DNA from: Asterias amurensis
Lineage: Eukaryota > Echinodermata > Asteroidea > Forcipulatida > Asteriidae
Assembly (NCBI RefSeq): GCF_032118995.1
Contig: NC_092661.1
Span: forward strand, 16,315,006 to 16,379,005
Direction of reading: 5' to 3'
DNA: 64,000 nt
Shown: piece after piece, positions 314 to 53,600 of the stretch
How positions within the stretch are numbered: the first letter of the stretch is position 1
Layout: every line of letters begins with the position of its first letter
The notes under the pieces: generated by a model
What the model was told of the DNA's origin: nothing
Seen by the model: the letters and a program-made list of their open reading frames with translations, nothing else
Databases searched by the model: none
Program-made: the position numbers and the translations under genes

Positions 314-1330
314 TTGAACATGGAATCTACTCAACCTCAGATGGACCAAGAAAACAGCAACGACTCCACAACACAACTACCTAGCATCCATCCCAGCTTC
401 AGCATCTTAAGATGTTTCCTGCTTGTCATAACAACTCTTTTCATCTTAGCACTCAATCCATTCTATCTTCTCATCCTGAGACATGTCAACAGCATCCAAG
501 AAACCACCAAAGTATTCCTGCGAGCCATGACCATTGCCGATATTGGAGTCGGGATTTCAGTTGCCATTCCGGCTACAATTTCTGCATTTTTCAATAATTG
601 GCCATTTGGGGAAGTAGTCTGTTCATTACAACCAACTGCTGGTGCAATTTCTTTCAGTTTAACAATATTTTCCCTGCTGATAGTCACTGTAGATCGTTAC
701 ATTTCTGTGGTGTATGCCTTGCGCTACCCTTCACTTGTTACTGTCAAGCGAGCGCGTATTGCAGTCTGTTGTGCCGGGGGACTCAGCACATTTATCGCAA
801 TTATGAATGGTTTCATAACAACATGGGAAGCTTCTTATGTTCCTGCTTTATTGGTTTGTGAGTCTAAACATTCAAATCAAGACATGTTGTTCACCCAAGT
901 ATTTTCCATCATTTCAGTAACGTTTAATCTCTTCATAATAATAACAACCTACATTCGTTTATTTTTAATTTCCCGCCATCACGCTCGGCGTATAGACGTT
1001 TTAAATATTGCACTCGATGGTAACCAGCCACCACAACCTCCCCCAAGAACCAACAATAAGTCTCTTCATACAACGCTCTTCATAGTTCTGACATCATTCT
1101 TTCTTAATGTCGTACCCATTGTATGCTTTCTTACTGTAGACCGTGATACAAATTCACATGTAGAGATCTTTTATCTGTTCTTTTTGTTGCTGCCCTTGTT
1201 GACAAAAAGTTGGGTAAATGGAGTCTGTTATTATCTGAGTAATACTGACTTTCGTCAGACGTCTAACAGACTCCTGAAAACACACTACAAACTTTGCAAA
1301 TCTAGAATTCTCTTCAACAGAAACCCTTAA
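314..1330 (+). CDS. Rhodopsin-type GPCR, intronless, copy A
   Basis: A 338-residue seven-transmembrane receptor in one exon. Seen: N-glycosylation site at N16; TM1 about residues 31-55; TM2 with the sodium-site Asp (D76); ECL1 Trp (WPFG) and C103, which should pair with C182 in ECL2; a canonical DRY (127-129) followed by ISVVYALRYP in ICL2; a proline-rich ICL3 (about 238-246); TM6 with FFLNVVPIV (Pro268) in place of CWxP; TM7 with NGVCY (302-306) instead of NPxxY. These are class A features with two altered switch motifs. Lineage-specific, intronless class A receptors expanded in tandem are known in echinoderms (sea urchin surreal-GPCRs). Ligand unknown. An upstream ATG (MNM) and the next (MES, codon 3) are both possible starts. 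The paralogue is at 3284-4312. Confidence 0.9.
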   Translation: MNMESTQPQMDQENSNDSTTQLPSIHPSFSILRCFLLVITTLFILALNPFYLLILRHVNSIQETTKVFLRAMTIADIGVGISVAIPATISAFFNNWPFGEVVCSLQPTAGAISFSLTIFSLLIVTVDRYISVVYALRYPSLVTVKRARIAVCCAGGLSTFIAIMNGFITTWEASYVPALLVCESKHSNQDMLFTQVFSIISVTFNLFIIITTYIRLFLISRHHARRIDVLNIALDGNQPPQPPPRTNNKSLHTTLFIVLTSFFLNVVPIVCFLTVDRDTNSHVEIFYLFFLLLPLLTKSWVNGVCYYLSNTDFRQTSNRLLKTHYKLCKSRILFNRNP

Positions 1331-2917: not shown

Positions 2918-3283
2918 TTGACATACGAGGCATCTCAGTCCCATCCTTATGCAGTAAGCAGAGACAGGACGAACACTCTACTAAAATTAGTTGTCATCCG
3001 CTGAAGGTTCAACTTAAGCTGTAAATTTATAGCTTTATTTGCAACATTTGCGTAAAGAGCGAAAAAGAACATTGCAAGGAACCCACCATCAGCTTTCCCC
3101 ATCAAAATGTGCTTTGTTTTTAGAATGGTAAAAACTGTTTGATTCACACGTGGTTAAAACTTTGTTGCCACTAATTGAGGTGCAATAATAACTTTGCTGC
3201 CTTTTGGAAACAAACCAGTACATTACAGTCAAGCTTAACAGCAAGTGTGCTGGTAATTTTGGCTTATACTCTCTTTTGATGAT
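2918..3283 (+). repeat. 5' flank of GPCR gene B, right copy of tandem duplication
   Basis: Homologous to the first 313 bases of the window, with an extra stretch of about 60-70 bases near 2958-3025 that the left copy lacks. Homology runs straight into the second receptor ORF. The duplication therefore includes the putative promoter, so both receptors may share regulation. Confidence 0.8.
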
Positions 3284-4312
3284 TTGAAAATGGAATCTAC
3301 TGAACCTCAGATGGATCAAGAAAACAGCAACGACTCCACAACACCAGGACCTGAGGAGAGCATCCATCCCAGCTTCAGCATCTTAAGATGTTTCCTGCTT
3401 GTCATAACAACTCTCCTCATCTTAACACTCAATCCATTCTATCTTCTCATCCTGAGACATGTCAACAGCATCCAAGAAACCACCAAAGTATTCCTGCGAG
3501 CCATGACCATTGCCGATATTGGAGTCGGGATTTCAGTTGCCATTCCGGCTACAATTTCTGCATTTTTGGGGGACTGGCCATTCGGGGATGTAGTCTGTAC
3601 ATTACAAGCAGCGGCTAATGTGTTTGTTTACTGTATAGCTTTATTTTTCCTGCTCATAATCACTGTAGATCGTTACATTTCTGTGGTGTATGCCCTGCGC
3701 TACCCTTCACTTGTCACTGTGAAGCGAGCGCGTATTGCAGTCTGTTGTGCAGGGGGACTCAGCACATTAATCCCAATTGTGAATGGTTTCATAACAACAT
3801 GGGAAACTTTGTATTTGCCTCCTGCATTGGTATGCGAGTTTAAACTTTCAAATCAAAACACTAGTAACATCTACACCAAAGTATTTTTTACCATTTTAAT
3901 AACATTTAGTCTCCTTGTAGTTTTCATGACCTACATTCGTTTATTTTTAATTTCCCGCCATCACGCTCGGCAGATAGAAGCTCTAAATATTGCACTCGGT
4001 GGTAACCAGCCGCCACAACCTCCCCCAAGAACCAACAATAAGTCTCTTCAAACAACCCTCTTCATAGTTCTGACATCTTTCTTTCTTAATGTCGTACCCA
4101 TTGTATGCTATATTACTTTAGACACTGATACAAATTCACATGTAGAGATCTTTTATCTGTTCTTTTTGTTGCTGCCCTTGTTGACACAAAGTTGGGTAAA
4201 CGGAATCTGTTATTATCTGAGTAATACCGACTTTCGTCAGACTGCTAACAGACTCCTGAAAACACACTACCAACTTTGCAAAAACCACATTCCATTCAAC
4301 GGAAACACTTAA
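3284..4312 (+). CDS. Rhodopsin-type GPCR, intronless, copy B
   Basis: A 342-residue seven-transmembrane receptor, paralogue of the gene at 314-1330. It has the same architecture: N-terminal glycosylation site, TM2 Asp, DRY with ISVVYALRYP, proline-rich ICL3, FFLNVVPIV in TM6, and NGICY replacing NPxxY in TM7. N-terminus, TM1-TM2, ICL2, ICL3, TM6 and TM7 are almost identical between copies. Differences cluster in the outer part of TM3 just after the conserved Cys, in ECL2, and in TM5, where class A receptors bind ligand. In a 22-codon TM3 block 15 codons differ and 14 change the residue. Similarity ends near the stop codon; the 3' flanks are unrelated. Intact and presumably functional; ligand unknown. 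Confidence 0.9.
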   Translation: MKMESTEPQMDQENSNDSTTPGPEESIHPSFSILRCFLLVITTLLILTLNPFYLLILRHVNSIQETTKVFLRAMTIADIGVGISVAIPATISAFLGDWPFGDVVCTLQAAANVFVYCIALFFLLIITVDRYISVVYALRYPSLVTVKRARIAVCCAGGLSTLIPIVNGFITTWETLYLPPALVCEFKLSNQNTSNIYTKVFFTILITFSLLVVFMTYIRLFLISRHHARQIEALNIALGGNQPPQPPPRTNNKSLQTTLFIVLTSFFLNVVPIVCYITLDTDTNSHVEIFYLFFLLLPLLTQSWVNGICYYLSNTDFRQTANRLLKTHYQLCKNHIPFNGNT

Positions 4313-4329
4313 ACGCACTGGAAACCTTT

Positions 4330-4631
4330 AGTATATTGGCAAAGACCAGTATTCTCACTTGGTGCATCTCAACATGTGCATAAAATAACGTGTGAAAATT
4401 TGGGCTCAAACGATCAATTATTGGTCATCGATGTTGGAAGAAAATAATGAAAGATAAAACACACTTGTTGCACAAACGTGTGTTTTATTATTTGAGAGGG
4501 AAATTACCTCTTTCTCCAAACTGTGTTACTTCAGAGGGAGCCGTTTCCCACAATGTTTGATACTATCAACAGCTCTCTATCACTCGTTACCAAGAAAGTT
4601 TTTATGATTATAATTATTTTGAAGTTATTTC
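4330..4631 (-). mobile_element. MITE family A, diverged copy
   Basis: Reverse orientation relative to 1591-1981 (tggcaaagaccag...cacttggtg...tgcataaaataac...ggagccgtttcccacaatg). Its outer inverted repeats are eroded and it abuts a family B MITE directly. Confidence 0.7.
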
Positions 4632-13483
<8,852 letters not shown>

Positions 13484-31239: not shown

Positions 31240-33480
31240 CAATCGAGTCCCATTGATATTTTGAATGGGATTCAATGGGATGCCATTGTTTTAATGGGAT
31301 CCCATTGAATCCCATTGTTTTAATGGGATTGAATCCCATTGTTTTAATGGGATTCATTGGGATTGAATGGGATCCCATTGTTTTAATGGGATTCAATGGG
31401 ATTCAATTCGGTTCAATGAGATCCCCTGTCGATCCCATTGGATCCCATTGAATATACGTCCCAAATTCCACACCAATCCCTTTCAAATTTTCCCCATTGT
31501 TTCAATGTGGTTCAATGAGATCCCCTGTCGATCCATTGGATCCCATAGAATATGTCCCAAATTCCACACCAATCTCTTTCAAATTTTCAATGGGATCCCA
31601 TTGTTTCAATGGGGTTCAATGAGTTCCCCTGTCGATCCCATTGGATCCCATAGAATATGTCCCAAATTCCACACCAATCTCTTTCAAATTTTCAATGGGA
31701 TCCCATTGTTTCAATGGGGTTCAATGAGATCCCCTGTCGATCCCGCTGGATCCCATAGAATGTCCCAAATTCCACACCAATCCCTTTCAAATTTTCAATG
31801 GGATCCCATTGTTTCAATGTGGTTCAATGAGATCCCCTGTCATGCCTGTCGATCCCGCTGGATCCCATAGAATATGTCTTAAATTCCACACCAATCCCTT
31901 TCAAATTTTCAATGGGATCCCATTGTTTCAATGGGGTTCAATGAGATCCCCTGTCGATCCCGCTGGATCCCATAGAATGTCCCAAATTCCACACCAATCC
32001 CTTTCAAATTTTCAATGGGATCCCATTGTTTCAATGGGGTTCAATGAGATCCCCTGTCGATCCCGCTGGATCCCATAGAATGTCCCAAATTCCACACCAA
32101 TCCCTTTCAAATTTTCAATGGAATCCCATTGTTTCAATGGGGTTCAATGAGATCCCCTGTCGATCCCGCTGGATCCCATAGAATGTCCCAAATTCCACAC
32201 CAATCCCTTTCAAATTTTCAATGGGATCCCATTGTTTCAATGGGGTTCAATGAGATCCCCTGTCGATCCCATTGGATCCCATAGAATGTCCCAAATTCCA
32301 CACCAATCCCTTTCAAATTTTCAATGGGATCCCATTGTTTCAATGGGGTTCAATGAGATCCCCTGTCGATCCCGCTGGATCCCATAGAATGTCCCAAATT
32401 CCACACCAATCCCTTTCAAATTTTCAATGGGATCCCATTGTTTCAATGGGGTTCAATGAGATCCCCTGTCGATCCCGCTGGATCCCATAGAATGTCCCAA
32501 ATTCCACACCAATCCCTTTCAAATTTTCAATGGGATCCCATTGTTTCAATGTGGTTCAATGAGATCCCCTGTCGATCCCATTGGATCCCATTGAATATGT
32601 CCCAAATTCCACACCAATCCCTTTCAAATTTTCAATGGGATCCCATTGTTTCAATGTGGTTCAATGAGATCCCATGTCGATCCCATTGGATCCCATAGAA
32701 TATGTCCCAAATTCCACACCAATCCCTTTCAAATTTTCAATGGGATCCCATTGTTTCAATGGGGTTCAATGAGATCCCCTGTCATGCCTGTCGATCCCGC
32801 TGGATCCCATAGAATATGTCTTAAATTCCACACCAATCCCTTTCAAATTTTCAATGGGATCCCATTGTTTCAATGTGGTTCAATGAGATCCCATGTCGAT
32901 CCCATTGGATCCCATAGAATATGTCCCAAATTCCACACCAATCCCTTTCAAATTTTCAATGGGATCCCATTGTTTCAATGTGGTTCAATGAGATCCCCTG
33001 TCGATCCCATTGGATCCCATAGAATGTCCCAAATTCCACACCAATCCCTTTCAAATTTTCAATGGGATCCCATTGTTTCAATGGGGTTCAATGAGATCCC
33101 CTGTCGATCCCATTGGATCCCATTGAATATGTCCCAAATTCCACACCAATCCCTTTCAAATTTTCAATGGGATCCCATTGTTTCAATGGGGTTCAATGAG
33201 ATCCCCTGTCGATCCCGCTGGATCCCATTGAATGTCCCAAATTCCACACCAATCCCTTTCAAATTTTCAATGGGATCCCATTGTTTCAATGGGGTTCAAT
33301 GAGATCCCCTGTCGATCCCATTGGATCCCATTGAATATGTCCCAAATTCCACACCAATCCCTTTCAAATTTTCAATGGGATCCCATTGTTTCAATGTGGT
33401 TCAATGAGATCCCCTGTCGATCCCATTGGATCCCATTGGATCCCATTGAATATGTCCCAAATTCTACACCAATCCCAATG
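31240..33480 (+). repeat. Minisatellite, about 20 units of about 103-105 bp
   Basis: Unit landmarks: tcaatgggatcccattgttt, caatggggttcaatgagatc, ccctgtcgatcccgctggat, gtcccaaattccacaccaat, ccctttcaaattt. The spacing of attccacacc is 103 bp in the shorter unit type. Each unit carries the perfect 16-bp palindrome CAATGGGATCCCATTG. The left edge (31240-31430) consists of shorter 20-30 bp subrepeats of the same motif, likely the ancestral form. Two units (about 31838 and 32783) share a 9-base insertion and ttaaattcc variant, showing a higher-order duplication. Lies between the SLC5A and VBP1 genes. Confidence 0.95.
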
Positions 33481-50430: not shown

Positions 50431-50479
<49 letters not shown>

Positions 50480-50658
50480 GTTGTTATTGTTATTGTTATT
50501 GTTATTGTTATTGTTATTGTTATTGTTATTGTTATTGTTATTGTTATTGTTATTGTTATTGTTATTGTTATTGTTATTGTTATTGTTATTGTTATTGTTA
50601 TTGTTATTGTTATTGTTATTGTTATTGTTATTGTTATTGTTATTGTTATTGTTATTGT

Positions 50659-50693
<35 letters not shown>

Positions 50694-53600
50694 CATTATT
50701 ATTATTGTTTGGCATGTTGAGTGGCTTGGTGAAGAGGTTCATCAGACATGTCAGAGAGTTGCTGTTGTTAGGTTCACATAGGTACTATACCTATACAATA
50801 AGGTTCTTTAGGTTGGGTGGTCTTGTCCAGAAGTGTTGAGCGAGAAGAGTGTCATGCCTAGTTGCATGTCTGATCAGTTTTAATATTTGCTTAAATTTTT
50901 TATTTACAGAGCTCCATTTGATGTTTCGGTTAATGGACAGAGTACCTGATGGTATCAATCCAATGTTAAGAGATCTAGAACACCATATAATGGAGGCTGG
51001 TCTGGCGGACATGGTAGCTGCGGCAGATATCATTACATCGGTAAACAACAAAAACACAATTCATTCAGTATTTTATTATTTGAGGAAGTGTCGTGACCGA
51101 AGGGTTAAGAGCTCCAAATTCAAACTCTAGTGTTTCTGATCAGCAGAGTGTGGGTTCGAATCCCAAGCCGTGACGATTGTGTCCTTAAGCAAGACATAAG
51201 CATTGCTTTCGAACTTCGGATGAGGCATAAAGGTCCTGTGTGTTGTTATACATTTTTCCTTTTTGTTATTACGTGAGGAAGGTGTTTTTTGTTTTGTATT
51301 TTGTGTCACTCTAGTTTGAAAAATTATTTGATGATTAATTGTCCATTGAAGCTATTATTATTTACATTGCCAAATACATATTTTTTCATTAAATGTTTGA
51401 AAAGAAAATTAAAATGTATGATTAGGGTTTTAAATAATATCTTTTGTTCTATGCATTTATCCTCATATTTGGTGCTCCATAATGGGCATGGTGATGCCCC
51501 CCCCCCCACTTTTGTGTCTTGGTTGTGTGCTTGGAATCTAAGGATTTACGCAAACCCTGAACGTCATTTCTTATTTTTTCCTAGGATTCCGAGAAGTACG
51601 TGGAGCAACTTCTAGAGTTATTCACTCGGTTTAGTACACTAGTCCGAGATGCATTCAATGATGACCCGAGATTCCTAACGTCAAGAGATAAGGTAAACAA
51701 ACAAAGCTGTTAGTTTGTAAATAAATACCTTGTTTACTTTGTATATTTTTGTTTGTATTTCCAGGTTATTTGTTCTGTACATTTCATCGTTGTTTTTTCA
51801 GCGCCTTGGAATGTGTTTAGTCATAGATAGATGACCCTTTAGAAATTTGTACTATAAGTTTTGTTGTATAAGGCTGTGTCTAAAACGGCGACTGCGTCTA
51901 TAGCTACGGCTATATCAGCGTGTGTCTGCATATTCTTCAAACCTGGCAAACGCACTAATCTAGCCGGAGCCGTATATTGGGAGAGTTGCGACATGGGGGG
52001 ACCAGTTATTTTGGTCACGTGGTTGCTGGGCGCCATTTTCGGTCCCAAAAAAATGTGATATGGCCTCAGTTTGCATGTAATCTCACTATTTATAACTGAA
52101 GGTGATTTATCAGAATGATTCTTAACGGTAACACTGATCTGATTTGATATATTTTGATCTGATTTTGTACATCGAAACTGGATTCACCTGATTGTAGACG
52201 TACTAGCTACCTCTGGACAAAAGAATATTTTATTTATTTATTTATTTCCTCAGAACCTCAAAACAATGAAGAAGATAAAAAAAAAAAAAAAAAAGTACAA
52301 TATTGTTTTGGTTGTTCGTGTGTTTTGTTAATTGGTAATTGCTTGTAATTATTTGTGTAAAGCGGTGTGGTACCTTTTGTGTGTAAGGAAGCTATATAAA
52401 TGTCACGTTTTTATTATTTCTATTGTACCCGTGTATAGATGTGTGAGAAGCACTCTGCACTCAGTGATTTCCAAGATTTTCCTGTTCACCACATGGGTGG
52501 GAGGGTAAAATAAAGAACAACAAAAACAGACGATTTTCATGTGAAATTTGAAGTTTTTAACAATGTGCACATCTTCAATGAAAACGTACTTCATTTATCA
52601 ATAATAATGTTTGCCCTCTGAATTGCAGGCTTACAAACATGTAGTTAACGACACAAAAGTCTTCAGACTCGATCTTCCAGCTAAAAGTAAAAGGTAATAC
52701 TACTTTCTTCAGCATGACTCCTACCTTAAAGCCATTGGACACTTTCGGTAAACAGTTTTGTCCAAAGGCCCACACTTCGTGTATCACAACTTATGTATAA
52801 AATAACAAACCTTTGGAAAATTTAGGCTCAATCGGTCATCGGAGTCGGGAGAAAATAACGGGAAAACCCACCCTTGTTTCCGCACGTTTCGCCTTGTCAT
52901 GACATGTGTTTAAAATAAATCCGTAATTGTCGATATCGAGAATTGATAATTGTTTTAATGTTTCCTCAAAAAGTAAAGCATTTCATTGAATGATATTTCA
53001 AGAGAAGTCTTTCACCATTACCTTCTGTTAACCCTGTAAGTTATTTGTAAATTAATTTGTGAACTTTTTTTTTTTTTTTTTTTTTTCTTTCCCCGAAAGT
53101 GTATAATGGCTTTAATCATGTAGAAATGTAAAGTTAATTGCTATGGAAAGACGAAGGGATTTAATTTGACGATGATTGTTTAATCTCCCTTCCTTTGTGT
53201 TGTCTATCTCTCTTAGTATAAGTAGTAAGACGCAGCCTGAGTCCAAGTGTCCAGAACTTCTTGCCAATTACTGCGACCTACTCCTTAGGAAAACCCCCCT
53301 CAGTAAGAAACTTACATCGGAAGAGATCGAGATGAAACTCAGGAATGTGGTAAGGAAACATTGACTTTAAAAGGCAGCAGACACTATTGGTAATTACTCA
53401 AAGTAATCTCAAAATTAATGGATTCGGAAACCATTTTTACCCGTAAATACCCAATTTTACATTTCGTTGAAAACCTGTGAAATTGAAAGTGTAATTTATA
53501 AATTTGGAAAATGTGTGGTGGTCGGAACTACCAGTGTAAATTCTTCCAGTGGTGGTTTGGGAATCCTGAATGCTGGGGTGGATTTCACAAAGAGTTAGGA

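Follow-up and report, generated by a model that had tools for sequence, protein, structure and literature searches.

A pattern in which tandem receptor copies are alike except in segments predicted to meet the ligand is already known in kind from vertebrate odorant receptors, V1Rs, and L/M opsins. Vertebrate odorant receptors are described as tandem arrays with mosaic genes from conversion and hypervariable predicted ligand-contact residues (PMC1995454), and adaptive sites of zebrafish ORs are placed in TM3, TM4, and ECL3 (reviewed in PMC1995454; PMC3914689). Primate V1Rs have been subjected to conversion tests, and the differences between their alpha and beta lineages lie in TM4, TM5, and ECL2 (PMC3914689). 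For primate L/M opsins, a peak of divergence is reported that selection maintains against conversion (PMC3924837; PMC3213168), and for a copepod enzyme pair, divergence islands that persist under conversion (PMC3728101). For echinoderms, published accounts describe one 12-gene cluster of crown-of-thorns ApORs with helices at least 80% conserved and variable loops (PMC5442662), and sea cucumber OR-like genes that are mostly single-exon and whose site models, with w at or below 1, point to purifying selection (PMC7042368). The words "gene conversion" are absent from the main texts of both echinoderm papers, and no earlier report of the present pattern was found in the literature on echinoderm GPCR gene conversion, our coverage of which is incomplete.

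Here we compare these systems with two receptor genes, A and B, from a window of 64,000 nucleotides (G000:C14:16315006-16379005) in a genome of 491.5 Mb and 23 contigs. Like vertebrate ORs and V1Rs, the A/B family has tandem arrays, conversion mosaics, and variable predicted contact residues; unlike them, it stands in another receptor clade and probably in another phylum, and A/B is a single pair with a nearly identical TM1-TM2 beside the divergent blocks. A and B resemble the L/M opsins as tandem GPCR genes homogenised except where the putative functional difference sits. They differ from these opsins in that opsin conversion is seen mostly in introns, whereas A and B are intronless and their alike parts are other coding segments; in addition, raised silent divergence of the A/B blocks is only partly supported. 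Selection that removes tracts running through the pocket, which we infer for A and B, would match the red/green opsin model (PMC3924837; PMC3213168). ApORs and sea cucumber OR-like genes share with A and B a rhodopsin-like sequence, tandem clusters, and fast evolution. Unlike in both echinoderm studies, variation in the A/B family is among its highest in TM3 and TM5, a helix-centred pattern that differs from the conserved helices of the one (PMC5442662) and the purifying site models of the other (PMC7042368). The locus may serve as an invertebrate chemoreceptor-like case, built on four copies and 21 pairs of one genome, in which copy exchange and pocket diversification are separable. It also carries a caution: in a converting family, a divergent block beside a similar flank does not by itself prove positive selection.

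Two intronless receptor genes and their close copies

Receptor gene A (positions 320..1330, forward strand, 336 aa) and receptor gene B (3290..4312, forward strand, 340 aa) encode class A (rhodopsin-like) GPCRs with 79.6% protein identity, and both exceed the curated cut-off of 30.5 bits for the Pfam profile 7tm_1 (A, 92.4 bits, E = 4.4e-26; B, 94.7 bits, E = 8.4e-27). The starts given in the earlier note, 314 and 3284, are to be corrected, as they fall on an in-frame TTG upstream of the ATG codons at 320 and 3290. Among PDB sequences, B matches 444 distinct entries at E up to 0.001, with muscarinic M2 at the top and beta-adrenergic receptors next. The residues N48, D76, D127-R128-Y129, C103, and C182 (B numbering) are invariant in A and B; we take them, under the usual motif names, to be N1.50, D2.50, the D/E-R-Y motif, and the C3.25-C45.50 pair. 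The motifs CWxP (TM6) and NPxxY (TM7) are common in class A GPCRs and not universal. Both are absent from A and B, where the B protein reads FLNVVP in TM6 and VNGICYY in TM7, so the two receptors are atypical class A members despite their match to the 7tm_1 profile. Residue 3.32 is G in A, N in B, and T in C (see below) rather than the aminergic Asp, and with G or N at this position A and B do not look aminergic. An AlphaFold2 run on the two sequences of A and B reached pLDDT 39 and pTM 0.21, and the model was set aside.

Both genes are single open frames without introns, and open-frame relatives lie in arrays on C14, C20, and elsewhere, a trait of echinoderm odorant-receptor-like genes (surreal-GPCR / ApOR). 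As recent tandem duplicates, A and B would belong with an open copy C and a broken copy D to one clade of four, which would sit in a large class A GPCR family with many single-frame genes in tandem arrays. This family most likely consists of chemoreceptors. The A and B loci are homologous up to the stop codon and no further, because dispersed repeats that recur several times in the window stand directly after the B stop (4309-4622) and downstream of A (1591-1982).

In a genome search in which the best 119 of 460 candidates were scored, only C and D proved close to A and B; no closer copy appeared among these 119 anywhere in the genome, and the next relatives are 48% and 45% identical. Copy C (C14:16643069-16644088, reverse strand) is open and 76% identical. 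Copy D (C14:16646113-16647076, reverse strand) is a broken receptor in two pieces, in which TM1 carries a frame-shifting deletion and a TAA stop comes late, near the C terminus. The C/D pair lies about 324 kb from A/B and is inverted relative to it. The earlier note had proposed adding further paralogues from the left of the window; the 8.9 kb covered there hold none besides A's own upstream flank, and the two additional copies were found on the same chromosome instead. Pieces of the family's upstream region recur in the 5' flank of D. These 5'-flank fragments were all that was seen near C/D in the way of a dead fifth copy. About 40 kb from C/D lies a further receptor array (G000:C14:16687684-16746240), 27-29% identical to B, two genes of which are 100% identical in protein.

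Divergent blocks and probable exchange among four copies

The basic contrast described in the earlier note is reproduced. Of the 22 codons after the TM3 cysteine C3.25 (from 3599 in B), 15 differ between A and B and 14 change the residue; TM1-TM2 is nearly alike, with 3/194 differing bases (3372-3565); and the 5' flank of B (3014..3289, forward strand; homologue of A 33-319), for which about 94% identity had been claimed, differs from that of A at 20/276 aligned bases (about 93% identical without gaps) and from that of C at 11/275. A stretch of 142 bases in TM1-TM2 (3426..3567 of B, forward strand), read from the alignment and codon list, is identical to A 450-591 and was probably homogenised recently. 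Two points of the description need correction. The paralogues had been said to differ almost only in TM3 and ECL2-TM5: the changes do cluster, but ECL1-TM3 and ECL2-TM5 hold 40 of 66 residue changes and 26 fall elsewhere. The clustering is beyond chance (15 changes in the densest 22-codon window, permutation p = 1e-4), and this densest run begins at 3857 in B, within ECL2-TM5 and not TM3. Nor do the changes of this pair bear out a ligand-facing position, since TM3 differs at 6/7 predicted pocket and 8/14 other positions (Fisher p = 0.34; helical moment p = 0.44). A periodicity on the pocket face was likewise rejected for A/B; none is seen by helical moment, and non-pocket positions of TM3/TM5 change nearly as much.

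Divergent block 1 (ECL1-TM3) occupies 590..685 in A and 3566..3661 in B, where it contains most of the block of the earlier note; 28/96 bases and 18/32 residues differ between the two genes. Divergent block 2 (ECL2-TM5) occupies 824..948 in A and 3800..3930 in B, with the densest run starting inside, and is as divergent as the first (35/125 bases, 22/42 residues). All four lie on the forward strand. The share of A/B residue differences that falls into the blocks, 0.61, is the second highest among the 20 pairs, A/B counted, that have 10 or more differences; the top pair reaches 0.67 and the rest 0.16-0.50.

Across the six pairs of A-D, divergence ranges from 0.156 to 0.292 in ECL1-TM3 and from 0.256 to 0.360 in ECL2-TM5, as against 0.015-0.080 in TM1-TM2 and 0.051-0.094 in ICL2-TM4. 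ECL1-TM3 and ECL2-TM5 are the two most diverged coding regions in four of these pairs. The exceptions are A-C and C-D, in which ECL3-TM7 (0.200 and 0.192) exceeds ECL1-TM3 (0.156 and 0.188) and ECL2-TM5 is still highest.

Identity runs and conflicting groupings indicate, at the level of sequence, that these four copies have exchanged segments. Longest-run permutation tests gave p values per pair for six pairs, uncorrected for the number of pairs, and the runs for A-B, A-C, and B-C (flank) yielded p from 0.0001 to 0.0011. A matches B over 19 polymorphic sites among A-D in ECL3-TM7 (4129..4183, forward strand, p = 0.0001), and A (586-625) matches C over 12 polymorphic sites (3562..3601 in B co-ordinates, forward strand, p = 0.0007). 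In the 5' flank, B matches C over 10 sites polymorphic among A, B, and C (2941..3088, forward strand, p = 0.0004; p = 0.002 when the flank is combined with silent coding sites). The tests on all four coding sequences give a C-D run at 3626-3648 (p = 0.015), and the coding runs of A-D, B-C, and B-D are not significant (p = 0.11, 0.52, and 0.18). At silent coding sites only, A-D has a run at 3751-3955 (p = 0.0044), and the runs of A-B, A-C, B-C, B-D, and C-D are not significant. The grouping also shifts along the locus: pairwise matches AB:AC:BC stand at 17:27:42 in the 5' flank vs 26:9:6 at silent coding sites (chi-square p = 4e-6, on sites that are not independent).

Within 3566-3598, all five two-against-two sites support AC|BD, such that the ECL1 of A is C-like and B shares sites with D. 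The TM3 core (3602-3661) has 35 invariant sites, 4 two-against-two sites, and 4 with at least three bases, and sites unique to one copy number 6 in A, 7 in B, 2 in C, and 2 in D. The earlier note had allowed that a third paralogue might account for the block; this is so for ECL1 alone, where A matches C, and not for the TM3 core, where A is unlike B, C, and D. No donor for the TM3 core was found in a genome DNA search of limited sensitivity with the TM3 blocks, which returned known copies only: four matches for the block of A (all four copies) and one for that of B (itself). The search with B's block thus missed A, C, and D, and a foreign donor, for which these DNA queries gave no candidate, could be missed if distant.

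Selection, age, and the predicted pocket

For the 22 codons, NG86 gives dN 0.44 and dS 0.27 between A and B (ratio 1.6), and ML gives a dN/dS (w) of 1.79 (p = 0.33 vs 1); both blocks together give 1.17 by ML (p = 0.67 vs 1). The earlier note had made a dN/dS above 1 in the block the measure of its reading: the point values of 1.2-1.8 do lie above 1, but not significantly. We therefore rejected A/B alone as proof of positive selection, with block values of 1.17 and 1.79 not distinguishable from 1. When ages are left free, w of the blocks is not distinguishable from that of the rest (p = 0.34). Synonymous divergence t is 0.33 in the blocks vs 0.079 in the rest (likelihood-ratio test, p = 0.001), an age difference whose parametric bootstrap support depends on the block limits (p = 0.005 with data-informed limits, 0.06 with structure-only limits, 0.28 for TM3 alone). 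Silent changes at codons with unchanged residues number 5/34 in the blocks and 11/234 in the rest (p = 0.038), the latter being below A-C (24/215) and B-C (25/216). Four-fold sites differ at 6/23 in the blocks vs 10/120 in the rest (p = 0.024), and at 3/15 vs 9/112 when the first two bases are equal (p = 0.15). Given this raised synonymous divergence, the block-to-flank contrast in A/B seems, with moderate support, to be partly a matter of age rather than selection, and the step of the earlier note from a block that outpaces its flank to positive selection fails for A/B alone.

A three-way ML fit of A, B, and C gives w of 1.24 in the blocks (p = 0.43 vs 1) and 0.55 in the rest; between the two partitions, the difference in w is modest, and so is that in age. 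In this fit, the neutral length of ECL1-TM3 (0.35, w 1.53) is close to those of ICL2-TM4 (0.33, w 0.16) and ICL3-TM6 (0.35, w 0.35), so that these regions are of similar age and the contrast there lies in w. Silent changes between A and C are not raised in the blocks (4/36, set against the 24/215 of the rest).

The wider family was sampled as 67 aligned open frames of at least 270 aa, each matching B (A, B, and 65 others including C; D is not among them), taken from stretches of the 119 matches that were chosen, largely by eye, for their clustering, with most isolated genes left out. The disjoint pairs with at least 69% identity numbered 23; one of them, 100% identical, was dropped and A/B is reported apart, leaving 21 pairs that are not fully independent owing to greedy picking and shared clusters. 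A subset of 12 pairs was chosen by eye, one per cluster or subclade, with two from the same C14 region; a subset of 17, chosen after viewing the pairs, is not relied on.

Over the 21 pairs, residue differences amount to 192/820 in ECL2-TM5 (0.234) and 107/677 in ECL1-TM3 (0.158), followed by ECL3-TM7 (0.157), C terminus (0.137), ICL2-TM4 (0.113), N terminus (0.095), ICL3-TM6 (88/1078, 0.082), and TM1-TM2 (88/1356, 0.065). Position 3.32 differs in 16 of the 21. ECL1 alone is conserved (13.5 replacement changes at 504 sites; common-t w 0.25), and the A/B change in ECL1 is thus not a family trend. The blocks of these pairs show no rise in silent divergence (75/1185 vs 286/4696, p = 0.42), and since it is not raised in A-C either, conversion that spares the pocket is not a family rule. 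In terms of an Innan-type model, in which a selected peak of divergence persists between converting duplicates, the tracts between copies are supported here, and a rise in neutral divergence near the selected sites has limits-dependent support in A/B and is not seen in the 21 pairs.

The pocket positions used are predicted ones that follow generic class A numbering. At the TM3/TM5 pocket positions of the 21 pairs, dN over four-fold divergence is 2.02 (bootstrap over pairs 1.44-2.82), or 1.87 (1.35-2.75) over the four-fold sites of the blocks themselves, compared with 1.03 (0.83-1.31) at other TM3/TM5 positions and 0.64 elsewhere; the summary ranges are 1.9-2.0 at the pocket vs 0.85-1.0 at the non-pocket positions of both helices. 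When a common neutral rate is set, codon ML yields w of 1.91 at the TM3/TM5 pocket in 21 pairs (p = 3e-7) and 1.55 in 12 pairs (p = 0.008), and 1.59 and 1.87, respectively, in ECL2; the pocket positions of TM2/6/7 are not above 1 under the same model (1.08 and 0.93). Over five helices, pocket positions differ at a higher rate than non-pocket positions (p = 5e-5; outer halves p = 0.006), also in the 12 pairs (p = 0.0007; outer halves 0.03); with TM3 and TM5 only, p = 0.005 over the full range and 0.085 in the outer halves. Helical-moment tests in TM3 and in TM5 are not significant.

The excess at the pocket depends on how neutral rates are set. With class-specific synonymous rates, which differ between classes (p = 2e-5; synonymous scale at pocket codons 1.83), the family pocket w drops to 1.07 (p = 0.75), since pocket codons collect an excess of synonymous changes as well. 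A possible source of this excess, among others, is multi-base mutation; clean four-fold sites show no unevenness (60/624 vs 207/2361, p = 0.47). The A/B pocket w with its own synonymous rate is not significant. The step to positive selection thus needs an even neutral rate along the gene. Judged from the aligned genes, we read the variation in TM3 and ECL2-TM5 as the effect of diversifying, or else strongly relaxed, selection across the family on segments with a predicted role in ligand recognition. Of the two causes offered in the earlier note, gene conversion gains support from the two further copies, and positive selection gains it for the family if the neutral rate is even, and not for A/B alone.

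Competing explanations of the A/B pattern

We consider it probable that fast change of the pocket segments in the family and exchange among the four copies jointly explain the A/B pattern. TM3 and ECL2-TM5 would line the ligand pocket and take up residue changes at a higher rate than most of the protein; the rate is seen in the sequences, and diversifying selection on the pocket positions would be its cause. Gene conversion or unequal crossing over among the four copies would have made TM1-TM2 and part of TM7 alike in A and B, provided A and C with the same ECL1 cassette, and left a 5' flank shared by B and C. Conversion tracts that erased a pocket difference would have been selected against, such that the pocket blocks keep an older divergence and the homogenised remainder exaggerates their contrast. 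A and B apparently became near-copies except mainly in putative ligand-touching parts because the family changes fast there and copying acted elsewhere; the expected outcome would be two receptors that share one coupling body and differ in the ligands they prefer.

Local positive selection alone, with one recent duplication, a single age along the gene, and selection on TM3 and ECL2-TM5 of A/B, strikes us as unlikely. If equal neutral age is assumed, the A/B blocks have a dN/dS of 3.5 vs 0.49 in the rest and the TM3/TM5 pocket codons reach 5.0 (p = 0.0004). Family pocket selection appears under the same common-rate assumption, and DNA searches, within their limited sensitivity, found no donor for the TM3 core. 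This account sits poorly with the raised synonymous sites of the A/B blocks (to the extent that the limits-dependent bootstrap supports them), with the conflicting groupings that C and D yield, and with non-pocket TM3/TM5 positions that change nearly as much in this pair. Conversely, conversion alone, in which the blocks escaped homogenisation under relaxed constraint and no diversifying selection acted, would fit the block dN/dS values for A-B and for A, B, and C, neither of which differs from 1, the family pocket w near 1 with class-specific rates, and the exchange supported by runs and grouping shift. We regard it as quite improbable, given that 21 other pairs show fast change in TM3 and ECL2-TM5 and no rise in silent divergence there at clean sites, and that pocket positions change more than the remaining positions of their helices.

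A mutational cause, whether clustered multi-base mutation or import of a block from an unrelated donor gene, appears very improbable. Synonymous changes at pocket codons are indeed raised in counts that include multi-hit codons, whereas clean silent sites show no such rise. The TM3-block searches gave the four known copies only (that of B with low sensitivity), codons with a single A/B difference show a replacement:silent ratio of 23:5 in the blocks vs 20:13 in the rest (p = 0.09), and the same segments are fast in many pairs, which would not be expected of a chance hotspot. We tentatively raise the swapping of pocket cassettes, which is possible though doubtful: short conversion tracts may move ECL1, TM3, or TM5 segments onto an otherwise homogenised body, and new ligand preferences might then arise from recombined old pieces plus selected point mutation. 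A would be such a mosaic, with the ECL1 of C, its own TM3, and a somewhat D-like TM5.

Finally, three features elsewhere in the window may be recorded. At about 5000-8000, the reverse strand carries exon-like pieces that by eye resemble a putative thiolase (acetyl-CoA acetyltransferase). A tandem array of about 2 kb at 31402-33436, with 18.5 copies of a unit of about 103 bases, overlaps two long open frames that are probably spurious, and a microsatellite at 50431-50703 comprises 45.7 copies of a six-base unit (TATTGT).
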